Source of the DNA: Paramecium tetraurelia
Lineage: Eukaryota; Ciliophora; Oligohymenophorea; Peniculida; Parameciidae
Length of the DNA stretch: 64,000 bases
NCBI RefSeq assembly: GCF_000165425.1
Contig: NW_001799200.1
Location: forward strand, 186,178 to 250,177
Direction of reading: 5' to 3'
Under the pieces are notes generated by a model, which saw only the letters and a program-made list of their open reading frames with translations, was not told the origin of the DNA and did no database searches. How positions within the stretch are numbered: the stretch's first letter is position 1; each line of letters begins with the position of its first letter. Shown here piece by piece: positions 2,878 through 17,591 of this stretch. The position numbers were made by a program, and so were the translations under genes.

Positions 2878-5800
2878 TCATTTTGATTTTGCAGAATTTG
2901 TCTTCTTAAAAACATCTTCACATTATTCTACATCAAAATATAATTATTACTTTTTCTAGTTTGAACCCATTCATCATTTGGTTTAATTCTCAAGGCTTTA
3001 TCAAAGATTGATAATGCTTCTGAATATTGTTTTATTTCTTGTAGACATGCACCTAAATTTGTATAAGTCCCATTGCTACACTTTTTAAATAAGAGAAATA
3101 TAATTATTAGGGTTAATACTCAAAGCAATATTAAATTATTTCAAAGCTTGGTCATATTGTTTAAACATCCTTAATATTTCACCTAATTATGAGAACTTAT
3201 TACCCTTACAAGCCAATGAGTTAACGTGTTTGGAATCATGCTTTAATGCAAAGTCAACCCATTATTCAGCTAAATTATACTAACCCTAAGCTTTTAAACA
3301 ATCAGCTATTAATATTCACCATTTATTTACCTTTACAAAACAAAGCATTTACTGATTTAGAATCATAGGCCAAAATCTTTTCAGCAATTACTATTGATTC
3401 TTTACATTTACCCAAAGCTCTTAAATTATCAGCTAAAAATTAATTACTAAGTTACCTTTATAGTTTAATATACTCATGTTATCTGGATCTTATTCAAGTA
3501 CCTTTTCAATCCATAGATTCGATTCCTCATGTCTTTCTGTTGAATGTAAGAGTTGAGCTTATTAGGTTATAAAGTATTTTATACCTTTTTGTTCAATAAC
3601 GGTTAGGTTAGTAGGATCAATGGTTAAATATTTGTCTATGTAGATGAGAGCTTCCGAATGTTGTCCTAATAGTCTTAAACAATTAGCTAACTAATAAAGA
3701 GGAATACATTTGCAAAGAATAGTTTCAGCATGATCTGGGTCTACTTTTAAAACTGCATCAGTCGATTCTAGAGCTTCAGAGAATCGGCCAAGTTTAAATA
3801 AGGTATTAGCTAAATGAATGTGATTGATTACCTTTTATGAATAAGGTAGGAACATGATTAGGATCAATCTCTAGAACCAAATCAACACAAATAAGAGCCT
3901 CTTTATTTTTATTTTACAAATGTAAGCACTACGCTTTTAATTTATGATAAATTTTAATACTTTTGCAAATCAGAACATCTTTGTTCTAAAAATTAGTTTC
4001 TAAAACCTTATCAGCTTACTTAGATGCCTCTACATGCTATCCCTTTTACAATAGCACATTCACTAAAAATATAATTTCAAGCATACCTTTACAACTAATG
4101 ACTTACTCATTATTTGGATCCAGTGCAAGTACTTTATTGATGTATTCTAATGCCTCATCGTATTGTTTAAGGTTATATAAACATTGTGCTAGAGTTAATT
4201 GCTGAAAGATACCTTTACAACTTAAAATATCTATGTGATTTGGGTTTATCTCCAATACTTTATTACAATATAACAGAGCATCCAAATACCTTTTCAATTG
4301 TCTTAAGCAATCAGCTAAAGATATTTGAATTTGATTTACCTTTACAACACATGGAATTTAAATTACTTGGATCTAACTCTAAAATCTTGTCAGATAACAC
4401 AATTGAATTATCAATTTTGCCTAGCCAATATATGCATTAAACTAAAATATAATATATTAAAAACGTTTGCAATCTAAAGTGTTTATATGCTTTGGCTCTA
4501 TTACCAAGGCTTTTTCTACTAATTCTAGTGCTTACTAATACTACCCCATATTTTTTAACTAATTAGCTATTCAAATGCTTTCAGTTTGTACCTTTCTAAC
4601 GTAAAATATTAACTGATTTAGGATTGGCAACTACAGCTTTCTCTGACCAAATAGCAGCATCCTAATACTAACCAAGTAATCTTAAGCAACTAACTAAACA
4701 TATTTTATTGAATGATACCTTTGCAATGTAAAGTTCTGGTATGTTCAGGATTTATAGCTAATACCTTATCAGACCAAACAATTGCATCTTTGTAATTCCC
4801 AAGCAATCTTAGATTATCAGCTAGAATATGATATTAAATTTACAACCTTTGCAATATAATGTATCTAAATGATTAGGGTCTATTTCTAAAACTTAATCAG
4901 CCCAATTTATGGCTTCTTGAAATTGATCGAGTAAATATAAACTTTGAGCTTTGATATTAAATAAAAACATACTTTTAAATAATAATAATTCTAAATTTTT
5001 AGGATCCTTCTCTAACAATTTGTTTATACAAATTAACGCATCCTTATGATTACCTTCTTATTTTAAACTATTTGCTTAAGGTTAATATTATTTTACCCTT
5101 ATAAAACAATGCTGTTTGATGATTAGAGTCAATACTCAATACTTTATCAGCATAAGTTTCTACCTTTTTATATTTTTTACGCATAAATAAACTCATTGCT
5201 TATAATATTTTAACAATACTTTTAAAAATTAAAGCATTCAGATGCTTGGGATTCTTAGTTAAAATCTTACCAGCTAATTTAATAGCCTCACGATATTTCC
5301 CAAGGGAATATAAAATTTCAACTAAACTTATAGGATTAAAATAATACTTTTACATTCCAAGGCATCAATATCATTAGGATCTTATACCAATACTTTGTCA
5401 ACAACTTTTTACGCTTCACTTGTTTTTTTTTGTACAAATAAGATTTTTGCTATATTTTCAAAATTAAATTACCTTTAACACTTAAAAGATTGACTTGGTT
5501 TGAATCTTCACTCAAAGTTTTATCTATCAATTGAATCGCTTCTTCATACTTCTAGAGACCAAATAAACTTTGAACTTGTAATTAATGATTACTTTTACTT
5601 TTACAATATAATATTTTGGAATTGTTAGGATTTTCAACCAAAGCATTCTCAGCACATTCAAGAGCCTCTTAACATTTACCAACCATAACTAAACCATACA
5701 CTATTTATATGAATTTAAGTTTACATTTACAAAACAAGATATTTATATTTTTGGGATCTTATTTAAGGACTACATCTGCCAATTAAATAGATTTTTGATA

Positions 5801-6970
5801 TTGTCCTAGTTCTCTTAAGCAATTCACTATTAATTACAATTGCTAATTACCTTTATTAATCATAGAATTTAAATGATTAGGGTTTATATGCAACACTTTT
5901 TCAATAACATCCAATGCTTCTTTGTATTTTCCAAGAATACTTAGACAATAAACTAAAATATTAACAGATTCTTACTTTTACAATCTAAAGCTTTTATATG
6001 ATTAGGTTCTATCTCAAGGACTTTATCAGCCCAAACTAGGGCTTCGTCATAATTTTCTGTTAACCTTAAACCGTAAGCTAAAAATTGTTAGGTATATACA
6101 TTTCAGATAAAAGGCTTTAGAATTAATTGGATTTAAAACCAATGATTAATTAAACATCTCAATAGCTTCTTTAAACATTTATTTCTCAGTTAACTTCTAA
6201 CCTATCAAATTGAATATTAGATAGATACCCTTAACGCAAAGTTCTAATGATTACTGAATATCTTTAAGGTTTGAAACAATTTTTTTTTCCCTCGACTAGC
6301 TCTTTTTTTAAGTTGATATGTTATTTTTTTGACTTCGTACACTAATATTCTCGTTAGATCTGCTTATCTTATCACTTGATATACTAATTTTATCACTCAA
6401 TCCACCATCTTTTTACATAGCTTCTTAATATTTATATTCACTTAATCTACTAATCTTCTCACTTGATTAATTATCTACTTGATTGACCTCCATATTTTTC
6501 TCTTCACTTACAATTAACTTATTTTACAAATTTATTATTTATTGATTAAACATTGATCCATACTCTTAAATTGTTTTAATAGTCTCTTCTTTAAATTCTT
6601 TGTATTTCAACATTTAACTGACAACTACATTTATTTCTTTTAGACTTAATTTCTCAATTCTCTCCTAGTCTAAAATATATTTTGTTTTTATTCCTTCCTT
6701 CAAATTATTAAAATTCTATATAATTGCATTTACATCTTGAGATAACTCAATCATTAGACTTTGATAATCAGTCTCAAAATTTTCTATTTATTCAATAAAT
6801 TAAGGAATATCTATCCAATCTTACAAATGAGTTGAATGATGCTTATTTTAAACGCATTTCATGCAAAATAGTCTAAACTCTTTACACTGCTCATTTAGAC
6901 ATACCATTTTAATATTGCTCTTGTGTTCAGCCAAAGAGCATGGTAATTCTAGACTCTTTTCTTATATCAT
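2878..6970 (-). CDS. large B-box zinc finger / TPR-array protein (paralogue 2)
   Basis: The start ATG at 6970 encodes an N-terminal B-box-like cluster (C..H..C..C..FC.KC...HH..H, about residues 11-47). A charged coiled-coil/low-complexity linker to about residue 230 follows, then some 25 TPR-like units to the stop TGA at 2878-2880. Units carry the motif family NPNH..aL.cKG, then a YDEAL..K.L helix pair. Almost every unit has a 22-27 nt intron at the same place and phase, just after the CKG. Examples are 4063-4086 and 4189-4212, exactly 126 nt apart (34 codons plus a 24 nt intron). The first intron is at 6202-6228 and the last at 2938-2960. The array therefore repeats at DNA level with a period near 126-130 bp. 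Estimated length is about 1100 residues. The B-box and TPRs suggest a binding scaffold; no specific function is assigned. Confidence 0.85.
2960..6230 (-). repeat. intron-containing tandem array of TPR units
   Basis: Roughly 25 tandem units of about 126-130 bp, each a 34-codon TPR plus one 22-27 nt intron in phase 1 at a fixed position. On the plus strand the marker is the recurring acctttacaa or close variants, which is the reverse complement of the exon end TGTAAAG followed by GT. The equal spacing and conserved intron phase imply duplication of exon-plus-intron units rather than repeated intron gain. Units have diverged enough that the protein motif is clearer than the DNA match. Confidence 0.8.
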
Positions 6971-9621: not shown

Positions 9622-12600
9622 TCAGAAAACTAGATATCCTAAGATAATAGTTGTGAAACCTAGAATGTAACCTGAGGTATCTGTGTTGTTTGGAGTTGTT
9701 GTATTAGGATCTGTAGTGTTATTATTATTAGGTTAAACAGCTGTGCATACTCCACATTTATTTGTAGAAGTGCTCCAAGTATATGTATATCCTGAAGTCA
9801 AGTAGCATTAATCTTGGGTGAAAGTAGCAGGGTCCTTTTCTTTACAATCAGCACCATCGACAACACAAATTTGTTAAGATTTTTAATCCCAACTTAAGAA
9901 ATTAACGCAATTTCCATTATTACTTTATTTATATGAAGCGCAGGTATGTGGATCACATTTGCTAGGAACGGTTGTTGTTCCTGATTTTGATTCAGGAGTA
10001 AATGAACATCTGTCTTTGGCATTTGCGCAGGCCTTTGGATCATTTTTAGCTTATGTGCATGATGTCATCAAGGCACATGTACCTTAGTTTTCAGTGGCAC
10101 CTGTAGCAGTAGATTTAGTGAAGACACAAATTCCATCCTTTCCTGCAGAGTTGCAAGCAATTTTATTTTGATATGATGTACTACTGCAATTTGCTTAGTC
10201 AATACAGATAGTTCCATTGGAAACACATGTGGATAATCCAGCCTGACAGATAGATGTTGATATGCCTCCAGCAATATCTGAACATTGGTATACTCTGCAT
10301 GCTCCAGCATTGTTATTGGCTGTAGCATCCCATAAGCATTTACCAGAAGGTCCATCAGATCCATTAGCAGTTGTACAAGCTATTTAAGAAGTATAAGATG
10401 CGCAAGTAGAAATTGCTAAACAATTAGTTCCATCTGAAGTGCAACCTTTCAATTACCTGTAGCACTAATCATGAGTTATTCCTTTAAGATCCTTACAAAC
10501 TTCATCTCTGCAAGTACCATTCTCCCAAGCACATTAACCTGTTGATGTAATCAAATTAGTTGTCTACTCAAGAACTGCACCAACATTGTTTAAGACACAT
10601 GCTTCTTAAAGACCATAAGTTGAACAAGCAGCAAGAGGAGCACAAGATGTTACACCATTAGTTGTGCATTTATTACTTGCTTCTTAACATAATCTGTGAG
10701 TCTTATAGAATGCATCAGTGCATGAAGTATAAGCTTTACAAATAGCGGAATCAGTTGAATCAAGTGCTGGAACAGTCTTAATGCAAGGACCATCATATCC
10801 AACTCTGCATCCCTTTGTATTTGTTTCTGAACATAAAGTAATAGCCAAACAAGTTGATCCATCTGTAGTACATTAGCCTGAGATCTTTTAACATTCATCA
10901 TGGTCTGTCCAAATTAGACTCTTGCATGAAGAATATTGGAAACAACCTCCATTTCCAGAGTTTGCACCAGAAATCCAAAGACATGGTTGATATGTTCCAT
11001 TATACAATCCTTCAATACAAGCAGCTCTTACTGTAGCAGCTTCACAAGTTAACTGGGTGGTACATTTACCATTCAAGCCAGCAGTGCATTTAATTTTAGT
11101 AGTTGCAGCTTTGCATTCTGCATGAGTAGCAAAGGAAAAATCTTAACATCCTTGATCTCTACATTTACCATTGTCCCAGGTACATTTATTAAGGGGTTAG
11201 CCTGCAACATTATTACATGCTGATTCTGCTGTTGCAGCAGAGCATGTTGATTTAATAACACATCCTCCTCCTTACTTAGTTGTACATTCTTCTTTGTAGG
11301 CTATACATTCTGCTTCAGTGTCATAATCAGTAGAAACAGGAGCTGTTGCACAAGTTCTTGAAACACAAGTGCTACTGGCTGTCAACCATTAACATTTTCC
11401 ATTCTAATCATCTTTCACACATCCTGCAACATTAGTGACAGCTTAACATGAAGTTCTCAATACACATTTAGTACCATTAGTAGTACAACCAGCTTTTGCT
11501 TTTTAGCATTCGTCATCTGTAGTGAATGTGAAATCTTCGCAAATTTCAAGTTTACATTTACTACTTTCATCCAAAGTACATCCTGAGAAATAACTAGCAC
11601 ATCCATCTTTAGTGGTTACATCACTTGGAGCAGTTGAACAAGCTTTTGTATAGCATGCACCATCCAAATATTAACATGCATTTCCTCCTTTATCCTTAAC
11701 ACATTATTTTTCAGTCATTCCTTCACATTTGTCAGGTCTAACAACACAACCCATATTATCTGATGCAACTGTACATGTACCATCATCCAAATATAATTTG
11801 CATTCATCATCGCTATCATAACTTTCTGTATCAGGTGCAGTTTCACATGTCTTAATTCTGCATTTAGCTGTGTCATCCCAAACACAGGTTCTCCCTTCAG
11901 AATCAACAAAGCATTGTGCTTAACCATAATCAGTACAGTTTCCAACCTTTTAACATCCAGAAGCAGAAACTGTTCCATCTGCGGCTGTCACTATAGCAAC
12001 TGTGCAATGGTCTGATTTCTTGGTTCCAGCATTAGCCTTATAGTAATCATAACAACCATTATGGTCAGTGTAGGAACTTCCTGCAGTTGTACAAGCTTTT
12101 TCCATGCATTTATTTGAACCATCTTCCTGTGTTACCATGACACATGGCCATTCAGCTGAGTTTAGGTAACAATTTTTATCATTATAACTGGAACATGTAG
12201 CCTATCTGTTTTAACATCCTACTCCTGTAGATTTAACTGTACATTTCAAGCTAGAAATTCCATTACATAATGCGTGAGTATTGTAAGAATCCTCAATTTT
12301 ATCACATGAAAGATCTACACATGTCAAAGCCTTTTTTTCATTCCAGAAACAACTTCCTCCATTTGTGCATTATTCAGAGGATAAATAAGTATTACATGCA
12401 GCCTTAGGAATACAACCACCTACTTTTGCAACTGTGCAAGTATTTAAATAAGTATTACAATCTGAATGAGTTAATGCTGTAGTAGTTGGTTTAGTATAAC
12501 AAGTCTTTTTCACACATTATCCTCCATCGCTACCAACAACCCACTCACAATCTGCATCGGTAACAGAACCTATGCAGTCTGCTTAGACAGTAACTTCTGA

Positions 12601-15600
12601 ACATTTATTTGGTGCATTTTTGCATGCATCAGCTCCAGTCACTTTATTGGCTGTACAAGTTGACAAGTAAGTTGAACATGCAGAATGATTCCATGGTGTA
12701 GGCTTATTTGTACATGATTTAGCTTCACAAGCATTAGCAGCAGTATTAACGCTACAATTTGTATTGTAGGATTGACAATCACTATATGTTAATCCAGTAC
12801 CTGTTACTTTAGCACAATCTGTTGCATTTATTTATATACAAGCAGCAGTTCCACTTGTATTCCAGTAACACTTAATTCCTCCAGAAGTGCTTACACAATT
12901 TGTAGATGAACCAGTGTAATCAGAGCATTTTGTTTTCACTTCAACGCAAGAAGAAGCATCACTATTTTTCACGCAAGAAGCATTGAATGCTTTACATATT
13001 GCATCAGAAGTATTAGTATTTGATAATTATGCTTTCAATAGTTTGGGACAATCAGAGCTGGCAGTTGAAATTTATATACAAGAAGCAGTACCTCCTCCAC
13101 TTGGGGTATACCAATAACATTTAGCTCCACCTGAAGTTTTTGTGCAAGATTTTTATACATAATCAGAACAATTTGTTTTCTTTTCAAAACATGCAGATCC
13201 ATCTGATAAAGCATAGCAGCTTGAATTATATGATTAGCATTTATCATCTGTAAGGGCGCTACCTGCATCAGTTACTTTGGCACAATCACTACCAGCTGCT
13301 ATAGCTACACAACTAGCTGCATTTGCTCCGGCAGCACCATCAGAATCATACCACAAACATGTTCCATCGGAACCCTTTACACAATCAGCTCCAGCAGCAG
13401 CAACATAAGAGCTACAAGTTCCAATCGTTAAACAAGCAGATCCATCTGCTTTAACTGAGCATGATGTACTAAAGTCTTAACATATTTCATATGTTAATTT
13501 ATCGGAGCCATTTTTAACAATTTTAGTACAATCTAATGTTGCATCAATGTCGGCACAATCAGTACCGCTAATCTTACACAATCCAGCGGTTGATTTTCTA
13601 CAGCTTGCAAGTGCACTTGTATAACCTGAACAAGCAGCTTTTTTATCAATACAAGCAGTACCAGCAAGGTTGACAGAACAAGTTGAATTAACAGCTTAGC
13701 ATTAAGCAAAGGTCAAATTAGTTCCAGTTTTTTAAATACAAACAGTAGATTTTAATACACAATTAGTACCGTCCCAAAAACATTCTCCTGCTGTAGAGTA
13801 TGAGCATGCATTTTAATCTGTTCCTGTACATGTTGCTGGTTTTGTCATACAAGCTTTTGTAGAAGCACTATTAATAGTACAACTTGAATCTAAAGATTTG
13901 CAATGATCCTCAGTGGAAACAGCTGTGCCAGATGCTGTTCCTTCAACCTTTGTATAGTCTGCACAAATTTTATTTTGACAAGCAGTTGTAGAATTAGCCT
14001 TGCAAGTATTTTTAGCAGCTTCACAATTGGCATCACTATATGATGCCAAAACAATTTAAGCACAAGTCAAGGTACTAAAAGTCACACATGTATCATTTCC
14101 ATTCCAATAGCATGAACCGCCAGCAGAATTAAGAACACATTAAGGTTTAGAAGTATAATCACTACAATTAGCTTTTCTGGGTATGCAACCTTTATTGTCT
14201 ACTCTTTCGATAACAGTACAAGTACTAACATAATCATTACATTTTTTATGTGTATTATATGAACCATCGTCTGTGGCATCAGAACATGTAGCTTCCCTAC
14301 ATGCAGCCTTATCCCAAATACATTTTTTTCCAGATTTAGTGCTCTTACATTAATTCTATTCATATTATCCACAACTTTCCAATTTAGTCATACATGCAGT
14401 TGGAGTGCTACCTTTAGCTACTGTACATGCTGAACTCATTCCTGAAACGCCCTCACAAGCAACATGAGTAGTTAACTTAATTTTTTCACATACTAGGTCA
14501 ACACAAGTATTATCTGAGTTCAAATAACATGATTTATCAGTGGCTGTTTTTTCAGAGCAATTATATTAATTATAATCAGCACATTGAGAAGCTTTGTTTC
14601 GGCATCCACTATTTGAATTATTAACAACACAACCATCAAAATAAGCCCTACAATTTGAATTAGTAAATGATGTGAGATATCCACCAGTACTGGGTGAGGT
14701 AATTGTATTATCTGATGCAGTGTCGCAACTTCTTGGCTAACATTTCTTAGAAGGACTAAAGACACATTTAAATCCTACTGATGAATAACAGTTGTCCTCA
14801 ATTTAACGTGATGTGCAAGCAAAAGTAGTAGGATCAATACATCCATTTGCAGTATTGTTTACTAAACAATTATTTTTATAGCTGCCACATGCAGTATTAT
14901 CGGTAGTTGTTGATGGTGCTGTGGAACATGATTTATCTTGACATTTACCACCAGACCATGCACAATCTCCGTTTAATGAATTGGAAACACAACCCTCCTA
15001 TGTTTTGATAGCACCACAACTTGGTGGGATTGGCATACATCCTTTTCCAGTATTGTCAAGTGTACAAGATGGCATATGTGATTAGCATCCAGAATATGTA
15101 GTTATAGATTATGATGCTAAACGGCATTCTTATTTATAACAAGAGCTCTTATATTTGCATTTTGAACCACTTTTATCAACTTTACAATCTCCTGATTCTA
15201 CAATGTTTTCGCAAATCATATCAATACAAGCATTCTTTTAAGAATTAACTGTACAAGATGACAAATATCCATTGCATTTTTCATGTGATGTCTTAGAATC
15301 AGCTGGTGCATTTGCACAAGTCTTATCAAGACACTTACTCAAATCTTTATCCCAAACGCAATCTTTACTAGATTAATCCTTGAGACACACTTCTTAAACA
15401 TCAATTCTATCACAGGTTGTAAGATTTTAACAACCACCTCCTTTTTTAGGTATACAATTAGGCCAATAACTGCTACAATCAGTAAGTGAAACCAAGGTAG
15501 ATGGTGCATTATCACATGATCTGATTCTACATCCCTTTGAAGTAGCATTTACTGTACAGGTGGGGAGATATAAGGTACATGCTTCATGAGTTGTATTTGT

Positions 15601-16674
15601 AGTAGGGGCATTGTCACATATTTTATCTTTACATAATGTTCCATTAACTACACAAGGTGAATTATTTTTATCCTTCTCACATGCAACTACATCAAGGGAA
15701 CTGCAAGTACCATTTTCTTTACAACCTCCATCTTTCTTTGTAACACATCCTGGGATAAAGCCATTACATAAGGAGTTCGTATTCTTTGAAGGTGGGGCAG
15801 AATCACATTTATAATCCCTGCATGAACCTTCAACCCAAATACATTATTAACCAGAACTATTAATTTTACAACCCTCTTATAGCTTTGCATCACTACAAAT
15901 TGTTATTTATCTACATCCAGCTCCATTTGTAGTACAACTGGGATCATAATCTGTAAAACATTGTTCATGTCTTGTGTTGGAAGTGGGAGCTTAATCACAA
16001 GTCTTATTCACACATGCATTTCCATTCCAATAGCATTTCTATTTTGCCTACTGATCTCCATATTTGCATTGTGGTTGTCCATCTTATGAAGCACAAGATG
16101 TAGCACTATCCTAACATCCAGTTCCACTCTTTGCAACAGTACATTTGACATTCTTAGCTCTACATTGTTCATCAGTTGTTAGGGTTTTTGGATATTGTTC
16201 ACACAATGTAGCATCAATACATGCATTATCCTTCCAGAAACAATCTTTTTTATCAGAATTCACTACACATGAGACCTAATTCAAATATGATTTGCATTCT
16301 GCAATCTCTACACAATGAACTCCATCTGTAATACATCTGTTAGATATAGCTTTGCAATCATCATCTGTAGTCTTTTTAAATGCTGTGCATCCTGTAAAAT
16401 GGGTGCATTTATCAGTATTCCATAAGCATCCAAAGGTCTTTACACAATCAGCTTGTGCGAAGTTTTAACAATAGGATGCATAAGTTGTTGTTACGGGAGG
16501 AGTAACAGTGCCTTTTGAGCACGTATTTTTAGTTTCATCCCATGAACAGCCAAGTGAAGTTCTCTTTGTGCAATCTGTCTTTGATAGTAATTGTGTACAT
16601 GAACATTCAGTTATTGATGTTGTTACACTTAATGATATTCCTATCAGAAGCCAAAGGCATAAAATTTATTTCAT
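9622..16674 (-). CDS. cysteine-rich surface (immobilisation) antigen, PSA-repeat family
   Basis: A single uninterrupted frame of exactly 2351 codons (2350 residues), using TAA/TAG as Gln and ending in TGA at 9622-9624. The N-terminus has a signal peptide: MKQ, a Leu/Ile/Gly-rich core and a small-residue cleavage region by about residue 20. The mature protein is a long series of modules with regularly spaced cysteines and many Thr/Ser/Ala, often in the form C..DG..C.W or CTW...C. This is the layout of Paramecium surface antigens that coat the cell and cilia. The C-terminus is a hydrophobic stretch after a Thr/Asn-rich region, as expected for a GPI-anchor signal. Length is slightly below the roughly 2700 residues known for classic serotype antigens. 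GC content is visibly higher than in the flanks. Central modules around 12840-13400 are locally duplicated. Such genes are known to be expressed one at a time; which serotype this is cannot be told. Confidence 0.93.
12838..13320 (-). repeat. duplicated cysteine modules inside the surface antigen
   Basis: Two segments about 240 bp apart (starting near 12838 and 13079 on the plus strand) share the same order of blocks. Each has an acaag.agcagt block, a block encoding a tryptophan next to a tyrosine, a conserved aatcagagca/aatcagaaca block followed by tttgttttc, and then further Cys codons. This corresponds to a repeat of about 80 residues with conserved Cys spacing. A third, weaker copy continues towards 13320. 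Central tandem repeats are a known feature of several Paramecium surface antigens. Here the copies are diverged, not identical. Confidence 0.6.
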
Positions 16675-17591
16675 TTAAAGTATTATTTAAAAAGTACGTG
16701 CTAATTGTGAATTTATATAAATTATTTGATTAATATATTTTTTGGTTTATCTTACGTTTGTTTTATTTTTAAAATTAATTATCAACATTTAATCTGTTTT
16801 TAAATTACATTATTAATAAAAATATTAATATTATAAATTTCTACGATATAAGAATTCTACTCCTCATCAGACGTTGCCCAAAGAAATAACTTTAATGTTT
16901 AGAACGATCACACCTATTTACAAACATTTTTTAAATTCTACGTATCCTTTAACAACGCAATTTTCTCACCATCATATGAATCTACTTCTTCTTTCAATCC
17001 CTCGACACTCTTAATATGCAGGTACAATCGAAATACTGTTTAAGTATATGAAAATCGAGAAATGCCACTTTTAAAAATAGAAAAAAAGGGGATTTTTTCA
17101 TTGTTATAACATATATCTTATAATTAAACAAGAGTAAGAAATTTTCTCATTACACTTTGTTATCATTCTTCTAATTGTGGGCTCCTTATCTCTAATCTCT
17201 ATTGATTGATGAATAGAATATAATTTCAATATATATTTCCATTAAACCATTTTTAGAATATATCAATTAAGTCTATCTGCTCTTTTCCTCAAAAAATAAG
17301 AATTTATTAGAGATTCAAAAGAAGTCAAAACATTCTAAAGTCTACCATAAAGAAAAAACAACAAACTATCTAGGGAATAAAATATAGAATCCCAGAAAAT
17401 ATATTTAAAGTTGGATATAAAGAAGGTGCTACTAAATGAGATAATTCTTTTCATAATATATAGTATTTTAAATACGGTTACCATTTGAATTTCATTAACA
17501 TATTTTTATGTAAAAATAAATTATGGAATTCTATAAAATTTATTTATAAAATATTATAATACTTATTAATAATTAAAGTAATAAATATAAA
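16675..17591. other. upstream region of the surface antigen gene
   Basis: About 920 bp separating the antigen start (16674) from the stop of the next minus-strand gene (17592). No convincing coding frame is present. The sequence is AT-rich and should contain the antigen promoter, which in Paramecium is known to lie close to the start codon. I cannot point to a specific control element from sequence alone. Confidence 0.5.

Follow-up and report, generated by a model that had tools for sequence, protein, structure and literature searches.

A Paramecium tetraurelia Gene With a Probable Clonal Array of 102-bp TPR Exons and Tiny Same-Phase Introns

Here we describe, within a 64,000-nt stretch of Paramecium tetraurelia DNA (the window), a gene that we read, with a probability of about 0.85, as protein-coding and carrying a clonal exon array, grown by copying intron-plus-exon units and interrupted by tiny spliceosomal introns of the same phase. 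It occupies positions 2878-6970 of the minus strand, from an ATG at 6970 to a TGA ending at 2878; start, stop and frame were read directly with the ciliate code 6, and the TGA was taken in the frame that the last repeat uses. The first exon (6229-6970; 742 nt, 247 aa) encodes an N-terminal Cys/His module and a helical-looking linker, and is followed by 26 tandem TPR exons (2951-6201) and a short tail.

Each exon of the array would represent one TPR frame of 34 residues, and the unit at the DNA level would be an intron together with its downstream exon. As exon length is a multiple of three (3n) and phase is 1 at both ends, such units could be gained, lost or exchanged with frame and fold intact by unequal recombination, which we infer to have been the copying event.

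Gene Organization and Intron Detection

In a model built by hand, 25 of the 26 exons between introns measure exactly 102 nt (34 codons), and the odd one, 3182-3082, has 101 nt. The 27 introns are 21-29 nt long and all follow a Lys codon; 26 are in phase 1, and intron 26 stands one base early because the preceding exon has 101 nt. Intron 1 (6202-6228; 27 nt, phase 1, 3n) was placed by hand. Introns 2 to 25, all on the minus strand and in phase 1, were obtained both in the hand model and in a position-free search. They lie at 6078-6099 (22 nt), 5953-5975 (23 nt), 5827-5850 and 5701-5724 (each 24 nt, 3n), 5575-5598 (24 nt, 3n, AAG end), 5450-5472 (23 nt), 5322-5347 (26 nt), 5199-5219 (21 nt, 3n, AAG end), 5075-5096 (22 nt, AAG end), 4949-4972 (24 nt, 3n, AAG end), 4821-4846 (26 nt, GTT start), 4694-4718 and 4567-4591 (each 25 nt), 4442-4464 (23 nt, GTT start), 4315-4339 (25 nt), 4189-4212 and 4063-4086 (each 24 nt, 3n), 3934-3960 (27 nt, 3n, AAG end), 3810-3831 (22 nt), 3687-3707 (21 nt, 3n), 3558-3584 (27 nt, 3n, AAG end), 3433-3455 (23 nt), 3306-3330 (25 nt) and 3183-3203 (21 nt, 3n). 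The last two were again placed by hand: intron 26 (3053-3081; 29 nt, GTG start), right after its Lys codon and at the point where the frame is broken, and intron 27 (2928-2950; 23 nt), which separates the last repeat from the tail and is in phase 1 when read in that repeat's frame.

The position-free search used a TPR profile built from the gene's own units and followed a path from 6202 to 3076. All 24 introns that it found fell at a single column (column 0) and in phase 1; those starting at 6228 and 2950 lay outside the path, and the one starting at 3081, at the path end, was not called. The array scored 1530.5, well beyond chance, 15 dinucleotide shuffles giving 14.7-22.1. It is absent from the listing of Tandem Repeats Finder, probably because DNA identity between its units is only about 50%.

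A preliminary description had announced about 25 phase-1 introns of 22-27 nt, in units of 126-130 bp, just after a conserved CKG. The many tiny introns are there, though their exact number is 27; both length ranges came near the measured ones, the spacing of units from start to start being 122-131 nt; and the shared place and phase hold throughout save for intron 26. The distance of exactly 126 nt between introns 4063-4086 and 4189-4212 was correct, and the differing phases or positions that were to count against the proposal did not appear in the position-free search. CKG is better called a consensus than an invariant motif since, judged by eye, Cys precedes the junction Lys at just 14 of the 27 introns.

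Predicted Splicing of the Gaps

All 27 gaps have GT..AG ends (GTA in 24, GTT in 2 and GTG in 1; TAG in 21 and AAG in 6), and G+C is 14.9% in their cores vs. 29.1% in the exons. In these ends, in their AT-richness and in their length of about 25 nt, within the range of 20-35 given for P. tetraurelia, they are like the ultra-short introns of Paramecium as the available text of two studies presents them (PMC5663052, PMC5014332); their number sets the gene apart from the average P. tetraurelia gene, for which the same text gives a mean of 2.3 introns. Judging from the DNA, all 27 would be removed by splicing, each probably being recognized as a unit in the RNA.

Some gaps, chiefly the stop-free 3n ones with AAG ends, might instead be coding inserts of 7-9 residues, that is, former introns. 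Twelve of the 27 are 3n and none of these twelve contains an in-frame TGA; moreover, five of the six AAG-ended gaps are 3n, and a coding-potential model treated many gaps as coding. However, in G+C the 3n gaps (14.6%) equal the others (15.2%) and differ from the exons, AAG ends are as common in non-3n (14/67) as in 3n introns (8/41) in a set of 108, and an insert would land inside TPR helix A, with the helix limits as we assume them. The remaining 15 gaps, non-3n and at the same place, need removal if the frame is to be kept, and coding inserts are, on balance, decidedly unlikely.

That coding-potential model, a generic one of codon usage, recovered only 9 introns, reading many gaps through and halting at 3001, and was set aside because it is biased against stop-free 3n introns. 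An origin of the gaps as IES (eliminated DNA) was rejected by reasoning only: after TA-to-TA excision surplus bases would stay behind, and the frame would be shifted.

Related Arrays in the Genome

The layout recurs. Eighteen further arrays in the genome share the intron column and phase with the window gene, one of them, the degraded locus L026, adding only one such intron. When 20 family loci were searched on both strands, 15 of the 40 locus-strands reached an array score of at least 60, and 81 of the 86 introns called on the best path of each of these 15 arrays had the same column and phase. With L046, L049 and L050 added and the window gene included, the set comprises 19 arrays with 123 introns in all, not counting one in L046 that sits at a different column; 97 of the 104 exons between consecutive introns measure 102 nt (72 of 78 without the window gene). 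In the search of the 20 loci, each locus-strand entered the count with its best path alone. The later rows for L031+, L032, L033, L036, L038, L039 and L043, which were excluded, repeat these paths and run on beyond the array with falling score; their extra introns are mostly at other columns.

Other genes of the genome lack the layout in whole or in part. L047 and L048 are TPR genes of 9 and about 25 units without an intron at the shared place, showing that the intron site is not set by TPR sequence alone; L046 has introns there in two of five junctions. Six relatives that share the N-terminal module have WD40 repeats, encoded in a single open frame, and the site is therefore not forced by the family either. 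The claim that each intron is expendable thus seems plausible in view of L046, L047 and L048.

As to genomic location, at least 11 of 24 family matches are no more than 12 kb away from a contig end (p 8e-7, with a cut-off chosen after looking). Telomere repeats are absent from the three near-array contig ends that were read, and these ends may be assembly breaks.

Proposed Copying of Intron-Plus-Exon Units

Evidence on copying comes mainly from arrays whose units are still alike. Units of the young arrays L032, L036, L039 and L042 are similar at the DNA level, and in the first three DNA alignments cross the introns at one-unit offsets. Before units were compared, 12 of 122 were dropped for falling below the profile cut-off or containing a stop. 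Young pairs were defined as those with downstream exons at least 70% identical (78 pairs from 29 units, non-independent and mostly from a few genes). Within them the normalized intron alignment score is 0.135, vs. 0.044 in restricted shuffles (none of 2000 reaches it) and 0.051 in a length-matched null (none of 500), and intron lengths differ by 1.23 rather than 2.15 nt (p 0.0005). Relative to the upstream exon the effect on the score is weak (p 0.07 restricted, 0.04 length-matched). Plain gapped identity of introns in young pairs shows no excess over chance (0.75 vs. 0.744, p 0.38), and a Mantel test over all intron pairs finds intron and exon similarity uncorrelated (r -0.02, p 0.70). Some co-variation of introns with their downstream exons in young units is therefore present by score, and it lends moderate support to the view that intron-plus-exon units were copied.

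A different origin would be the independent and repeated insertion of introns at one proto-splice site (AAAG|G or similar) of an already expanded TPR array. A plausible site of this kind, AAAG or AAAA, does precede most introns; the two nulls just given, by plain identity and over all pairs, are in keeping with such insertion, as is the presence of introns at only some L046 junctions. Against it stand the two TPR genes of 9 and about 25 units with nothing at that place, the identity of phase and column across 19 arrays, and the intron length and score-based sequence that young units share beyond chance even with length controlled. We therefore hold repeated insertion to be very improbable, and favor the copying of units.

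The preliminary description had drawn the growth of the array by copying from the window gene itself, and had proposed that intron and exon divergence be compared between units. The growth is supported, mainly by the relatives. In the window gene, units have a mean DNA identity of 50.5% and adjacent ones are not significantly more alike (p 0.14), so its introns keep no visible record of copying; the "natural experiment" on short introns that had been envisaged here would thus be better run on the young paralogues.

The Protein Product

Up to repeat 25, the predicted spliced product (1097 aa) is a TPR repeat protein according to Pfam (TPR_2, E 1.1e-88; TPR_1, E 1.2e-79), and four repeats compared with engineered TPR structures gave a best E of 4e-39, the junction residue aligning to the Gly of the YNLG motif. 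The intron junction would fall in the codon of TPR position 8, presumably inside helix A, so that the DNA unit would be offset from the structural repeat. Once fused, the exons would form one long TPR superhelix behind the N-terminal Cys/His module, and the protein is most likely a scaffold or adaptor.

The residues of that module (C11-H16-C24-C29-C36-C39-H45-H48) form a pattern conserved in 17 sequences, the window gene and 16 of the 20 loci. We take its spacing to resemble that of a B-box; the module has no Pfam match to a B-box zinc finger at E<=5, and its profile found only weak and uninformative matches to helical regions in PDB (best E 0.013).

Introns of 3n Length, NMD and the State of the Frame

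The 12 stop-free 3n introns of the window gene (44%) exceed the published P. tetraurelia figure of 19.9% NMD-invisible introns, a class that also takes in some non-3n introns (p 0.003). A family-wide escape from NMD was considered and rejected: outside the window gene 26 of 96 introns are 3n and stop-free (p 0.096 vs. 19.9%). When five weaker models (L026-, L027+, L027-, L031+ and L045-) are left out, the count is 28 of 97 (p 0.04) if the window gene is included and, by subtraction, 16 of 70 if it is not; only the window gene stands out. The ends GTA..TAG are found in 71 of the 123 introns vs. 71% in P. tetraurelia (p 0.001), in 58 of 97 (p 0.02) once the weaker models are removed, and in 18 of the window gene's 27 (p 0.67).

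It is conceivable, though unlikely, that Paramecium independently evolved the clonal exon-array mode and that these 12 introns are optional in-frame spacers for which the demand for NMD visibility has been lifted. If this were true, a TPR helix would gain 7-9 internal residues with each retained intron, in-frame superhelix variants could arise from the one gene in many combinations, and the introns would be spacers, not waste.

The available text of one study gives P. tetraurelia introns a mean of 25.1 bp and a mean retention of 3.3% per intron, and states that exon skipping was not observed (PMC5663052). Accordingly, repeat number would stay fixed in the mRNA, only about 40% of the transcripts of a gene with 27 introns would be fully spliced, and the gene would be a sharp test of selection for better splicing in intron-rich genes.

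The same excess of stop-free 3n introns would also fit a decaying pseudogene whose introns are no longer under selection. A single 1-nt frame break, in exon 3182-3082, shifts the final repeat and the tail by one base relative to the remainder of the gene, and its closest relatives, L026 and L027, are visibly degraded. On the other side, 1097 codons are open across 25 introns ahead of this lone break, which adjoins five consecutive A and could stem from a sequencing error, and 26 of 26 units pass the cut-off of the TPR profile, trained on those same units. Decay of the array is thus rather doubtful, and we retain its reading as a protein-coding gene.

Known Systems and Significance

The closest known system is that of the LRR arrays of Tetrahymena, as described in the available text of PMC6564038: tandem exons of exact length, each one repeat-length long, with one dominant phase. 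The window array is the same kind of architecture in another family, the differences being TPR, 102 bp and phase 1 here vs. LRR, 90 bp and phase 2 there, and introns of 21-29 nt vs. intron lengths that, in the young arrays of Tetrahymena, peak near 122 and 257 bp, against a genome background of about 56 bp. Further marks of the Tetrahymena system are a subtelomeric or pericentromeric place in the germline genome and retrotransposon copies alongside. According to the same text, the Tetrahymena arrays vary in unit number, their growth has been proposed to occur by unequal crossing over and possibly retrotransposition, and the LRR genes of P. tetraurelia lack a 90-bp exon peak (PMC6564038). Among the matches listed in our literature searches there was no report of a TPR version.

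In the shuffling of symmetric (1-1 phase) exons in other eukaryotes, phase-matched 3n exons likewise duplicate without breaking the frame, the introns are long, and one exon usually equals one structural domain. Here, in contrast, the junction lies inside a helix and the introns are near the splicing minimum.

The array suggests that the building of repeat proteins from single-phase exon units of exact length is not peculiar to the LRR genes of Tetrahymena, and that a second ciliate genus employs it for a different repeat, with introns close to the minimum size. Furthermore, since one transcript combines 27 introns, 12 of them in-frame and 15 frame-shifting, whose exon context is nearly constant but whose sequences and lengths vary, the gene offers a ready internal test of the determinants of splicing and NMD of very short introns.

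Anatomy of the TPR Gene

Read with TAA and TAG as glutamine, as the long frames of the window read through, the TPR gene lies on the minus strand, opening with an ATG at 6970 and closing with a TGA whose last base is 2878. Its first exon encodes 247 residues, comprising eight conserved Cys/His positions and then a helical-looking stretch; a Pfam search of this Cys/His head found no B-box, and nothing there rose above the Pfam cut-offs. It is followed by 27 predicted introns of 21–29 nt, between which lie 26 exons, 25 of them of 102 nt and one of 101 nt. A Lys codon precedes every predicted intron, and 26 of the 27 are in phase 1, interrupting the codon that follows between its first and second bases, intron 26 lying one base early. 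Because of the 101-nt exon, the last repeat falls out of frame in the sequence as read, and the one-base shortfall is possibly a sequencing error or a true frame break. A run of five A adjoins this short exon, and within the intron 26 stretch (3053–3086, minus strand) another frame gives, by eye, the TPR-like CSNGTYTNLG.

A Single Intron Site

The preliminary description placed the unit introns at one position and phase. This was borne out by a dynamic programming search in which GT..AG introns of 18–36 nt could be placed in any phase and opposite any of the 34 columns of a TPR profile: 24 introns were called, all of them at column 0, phase 1. The score, 1530.5 against 14.7–22.1 for 15 dinucleotide shuffles, is flattered by a profile made from the gene's own units, of which intron position is no part. 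The introns at 6228 and 2950 lie outside the search path and that at 3081, at its end, was uncalled, all three belonging to the hand-placed model alone. Intron cores have a G+C content of 14.9%, vs. 29.1% for the exons. In an alignment with engineered TPR structures, the intron-split residue faces the Gly of the YNLG motif, which by conventional numbering is position 8 of the repeat, within helix A.

A Family of Related Arrays

Across the whole 69-Mb genome, in which the window belongs to contig C158, an N-terminal module query returned at least 24 matches, the window gene among them, and a TPR consensus query at least 78. When 20 N-terminal loci were searched on both strands, arrays scoring at least 60 were present in 15 of the 40 locus-strands, corresponding to 13 loci; along the best path of each of the 15, 81 of the 86 called introns sit at column 0, phase 1, and three of the five off-site introns belong to the degraded locus L026. 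Among five further TPR loci (L046–L050), the same layout occurs in L049 (3 introns) and L050 (10 introns), L046 has an intron at the repeat junction in two of five, and no intron was found at the shared site in the TPR genes L047 and L048, which have 9 and about 25 units, respectively. L046, L047 and L048 offer, within one genome, a natural contrast to arrays with an intron per repeat. Altogether the shared site holds 123 introns in 19 arrays, L026 supplying one and the minus strand of L027 two. Exons between consecutive shared-site introns measure exactly 102 nt in 97 of 104 cases (72 of 78 without the window gene), the other lengths being 93, 99, 101, 105, 233, 251 and 501 nt.

Seven of the fetched loci lack an array. 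Six of them (L028, L030, L034, L035, L041 and L044) carry WD40 repeats after the same N-terminal module, head and repeats sharing one open frame that lacks an intron per repeat; one Cys/His head is found in the family with two kinds of repeat body, TPR or WD40. The remaining locus, L040, shows no more than a frame of 198 codons. The heads nearest to that of the window gene belong to L026 (contig C109) and L027 (contig C26), a duplicate pair 89–94% identical across two stretches. Small indels separate their heads, and in comparison with L027, L026 has an altered 5′ splice site and lacks one stretch. Both loci are degraded, which suggests a birth-and-death family.

At least 11 of the 24 N-terminal matches are found no farther than 12 kb from a contig end (C26, C46, C223, C218, C50, C193, C206, C174, C65, C19 and C21; the length of C54 is missing from the count), an excess of p 8e-7 over a uniform expectation with a cut-off picked after looking. 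They may reflect subtelomeric clustering or, since the three near-match contig ends read carry no telomere repeats, assembly breaks at repeats. Less than 3 kb from the window TPR gene, its neighbor at 9622–16863 (minus strand) is an extended open frame in which 25 stretches match the Paramecium surface antigen domain PF01508 (Pfam, E 8.8e-225). This domain indicates the genus, and together with the glutamine reading of TAA and TAG it leads us to treat the genome as a macronuclear one of Paramecium.

Proposed Copying of Introns With Exons

In the young arrays, whose DNA is still similar, matches cross introns and recur at one-unit offsets: L036 matches itself over 680 nt at 73%, and L032 matches L036 at several offsets. 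Taking as young those pairs of units with a downstream-exon identity of 70% or more (78 heavily overlapping pairs), intron alignment scores beat both a null restricted to the units involved (0 of 2000) and one among equal-length introns (0 of 500). Their introns also differ less in length than under the null (p 0.0005). The signal is weak when the upstream exon is used instead (p 0.07 and 0.04, respectively), which points to the intron plus its downstream exon as the copied unit.

Plain identity shows no excess in the young intron pairs (0.75 vs. 0.744, p 0.38), and over all pairs intron and exon similarity are uncorrelated. More distant pairs hardly differ from chance at four-fold sites either (0.38 vs. 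0.35), and therefore an age-related loss of intron signal is expected. The window array is old; its units share a mean DNA identity of 50.5%, adjacent ones (offset 1) show no significant extra likeness (p 0.14), and there are slight rises at offsets 8 and 9 (p 0.047 and 0.008, with no correction for the 12 offsets). Growth by copying exon-plus-intron units, as originally proposed, is moderately supported by alignment score in the young pairs of the relatives, but neither by plain identity nor in the window gene. Because this support varies with the measure used, our confidence is trimmed to roughly 85% for the best explanation as a whole, a clonal array of phase-1, 102-bp TPR exons with tiny spliced introns.

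The authors who described the Tetrahymena LRR arrays of 90-bp exons considered these unique (PMC6564038). The Paramecium array shares the exon-array architecture described there, but differs in repeat, exon length, phase and intron size. No per-repeat-intron TPR array in Paramecium was reported among the listed literature matches (titles and abstract beginnings, outside subscription papers and ParameciumDB gene models). The array would accordingly appear new, within an architecture already known from Tetrahymena LRR genes.

Reading Frame and Functional Implications

In the window gene, 12 of 27 introns have a length multiple of three, and none of the 12 contains an in-frame TGA. This exceeds (p 0.003) the 19.9% of P. 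tetraurelia introns (12,996 of 65,159) given as NMD-invisible in PMC5663052, a class that includes some introns of other lengths. Single retention of any of the other 15 would bring a TGA 3–151 codons on, in the sequence as read. In the rest of the family the excess of such stop-free introns is unproven (26 of 96, p 0.096), and the overall share of multiples of three (44 of 123) is near one third, the value that neutrality of length modulo three would give. With 3.3% average retention per intron (PMC5663052), 40% of window gene transcripts would be intron-free.

The protein would form a long TPR superhelix after the Cys/His head and may act as a scaffold or adaptor. Exon lengths in multiples of three, together with a common phase, would allow units to be gained, lost or swapped with frame and fold kept. 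The authors of PMC5663052 suggest that the Paramecium splicing machinery recognizes only very short introns, and no exon skipping was observed; the number of repeats would therefore be kept despite interchangeable junctions.
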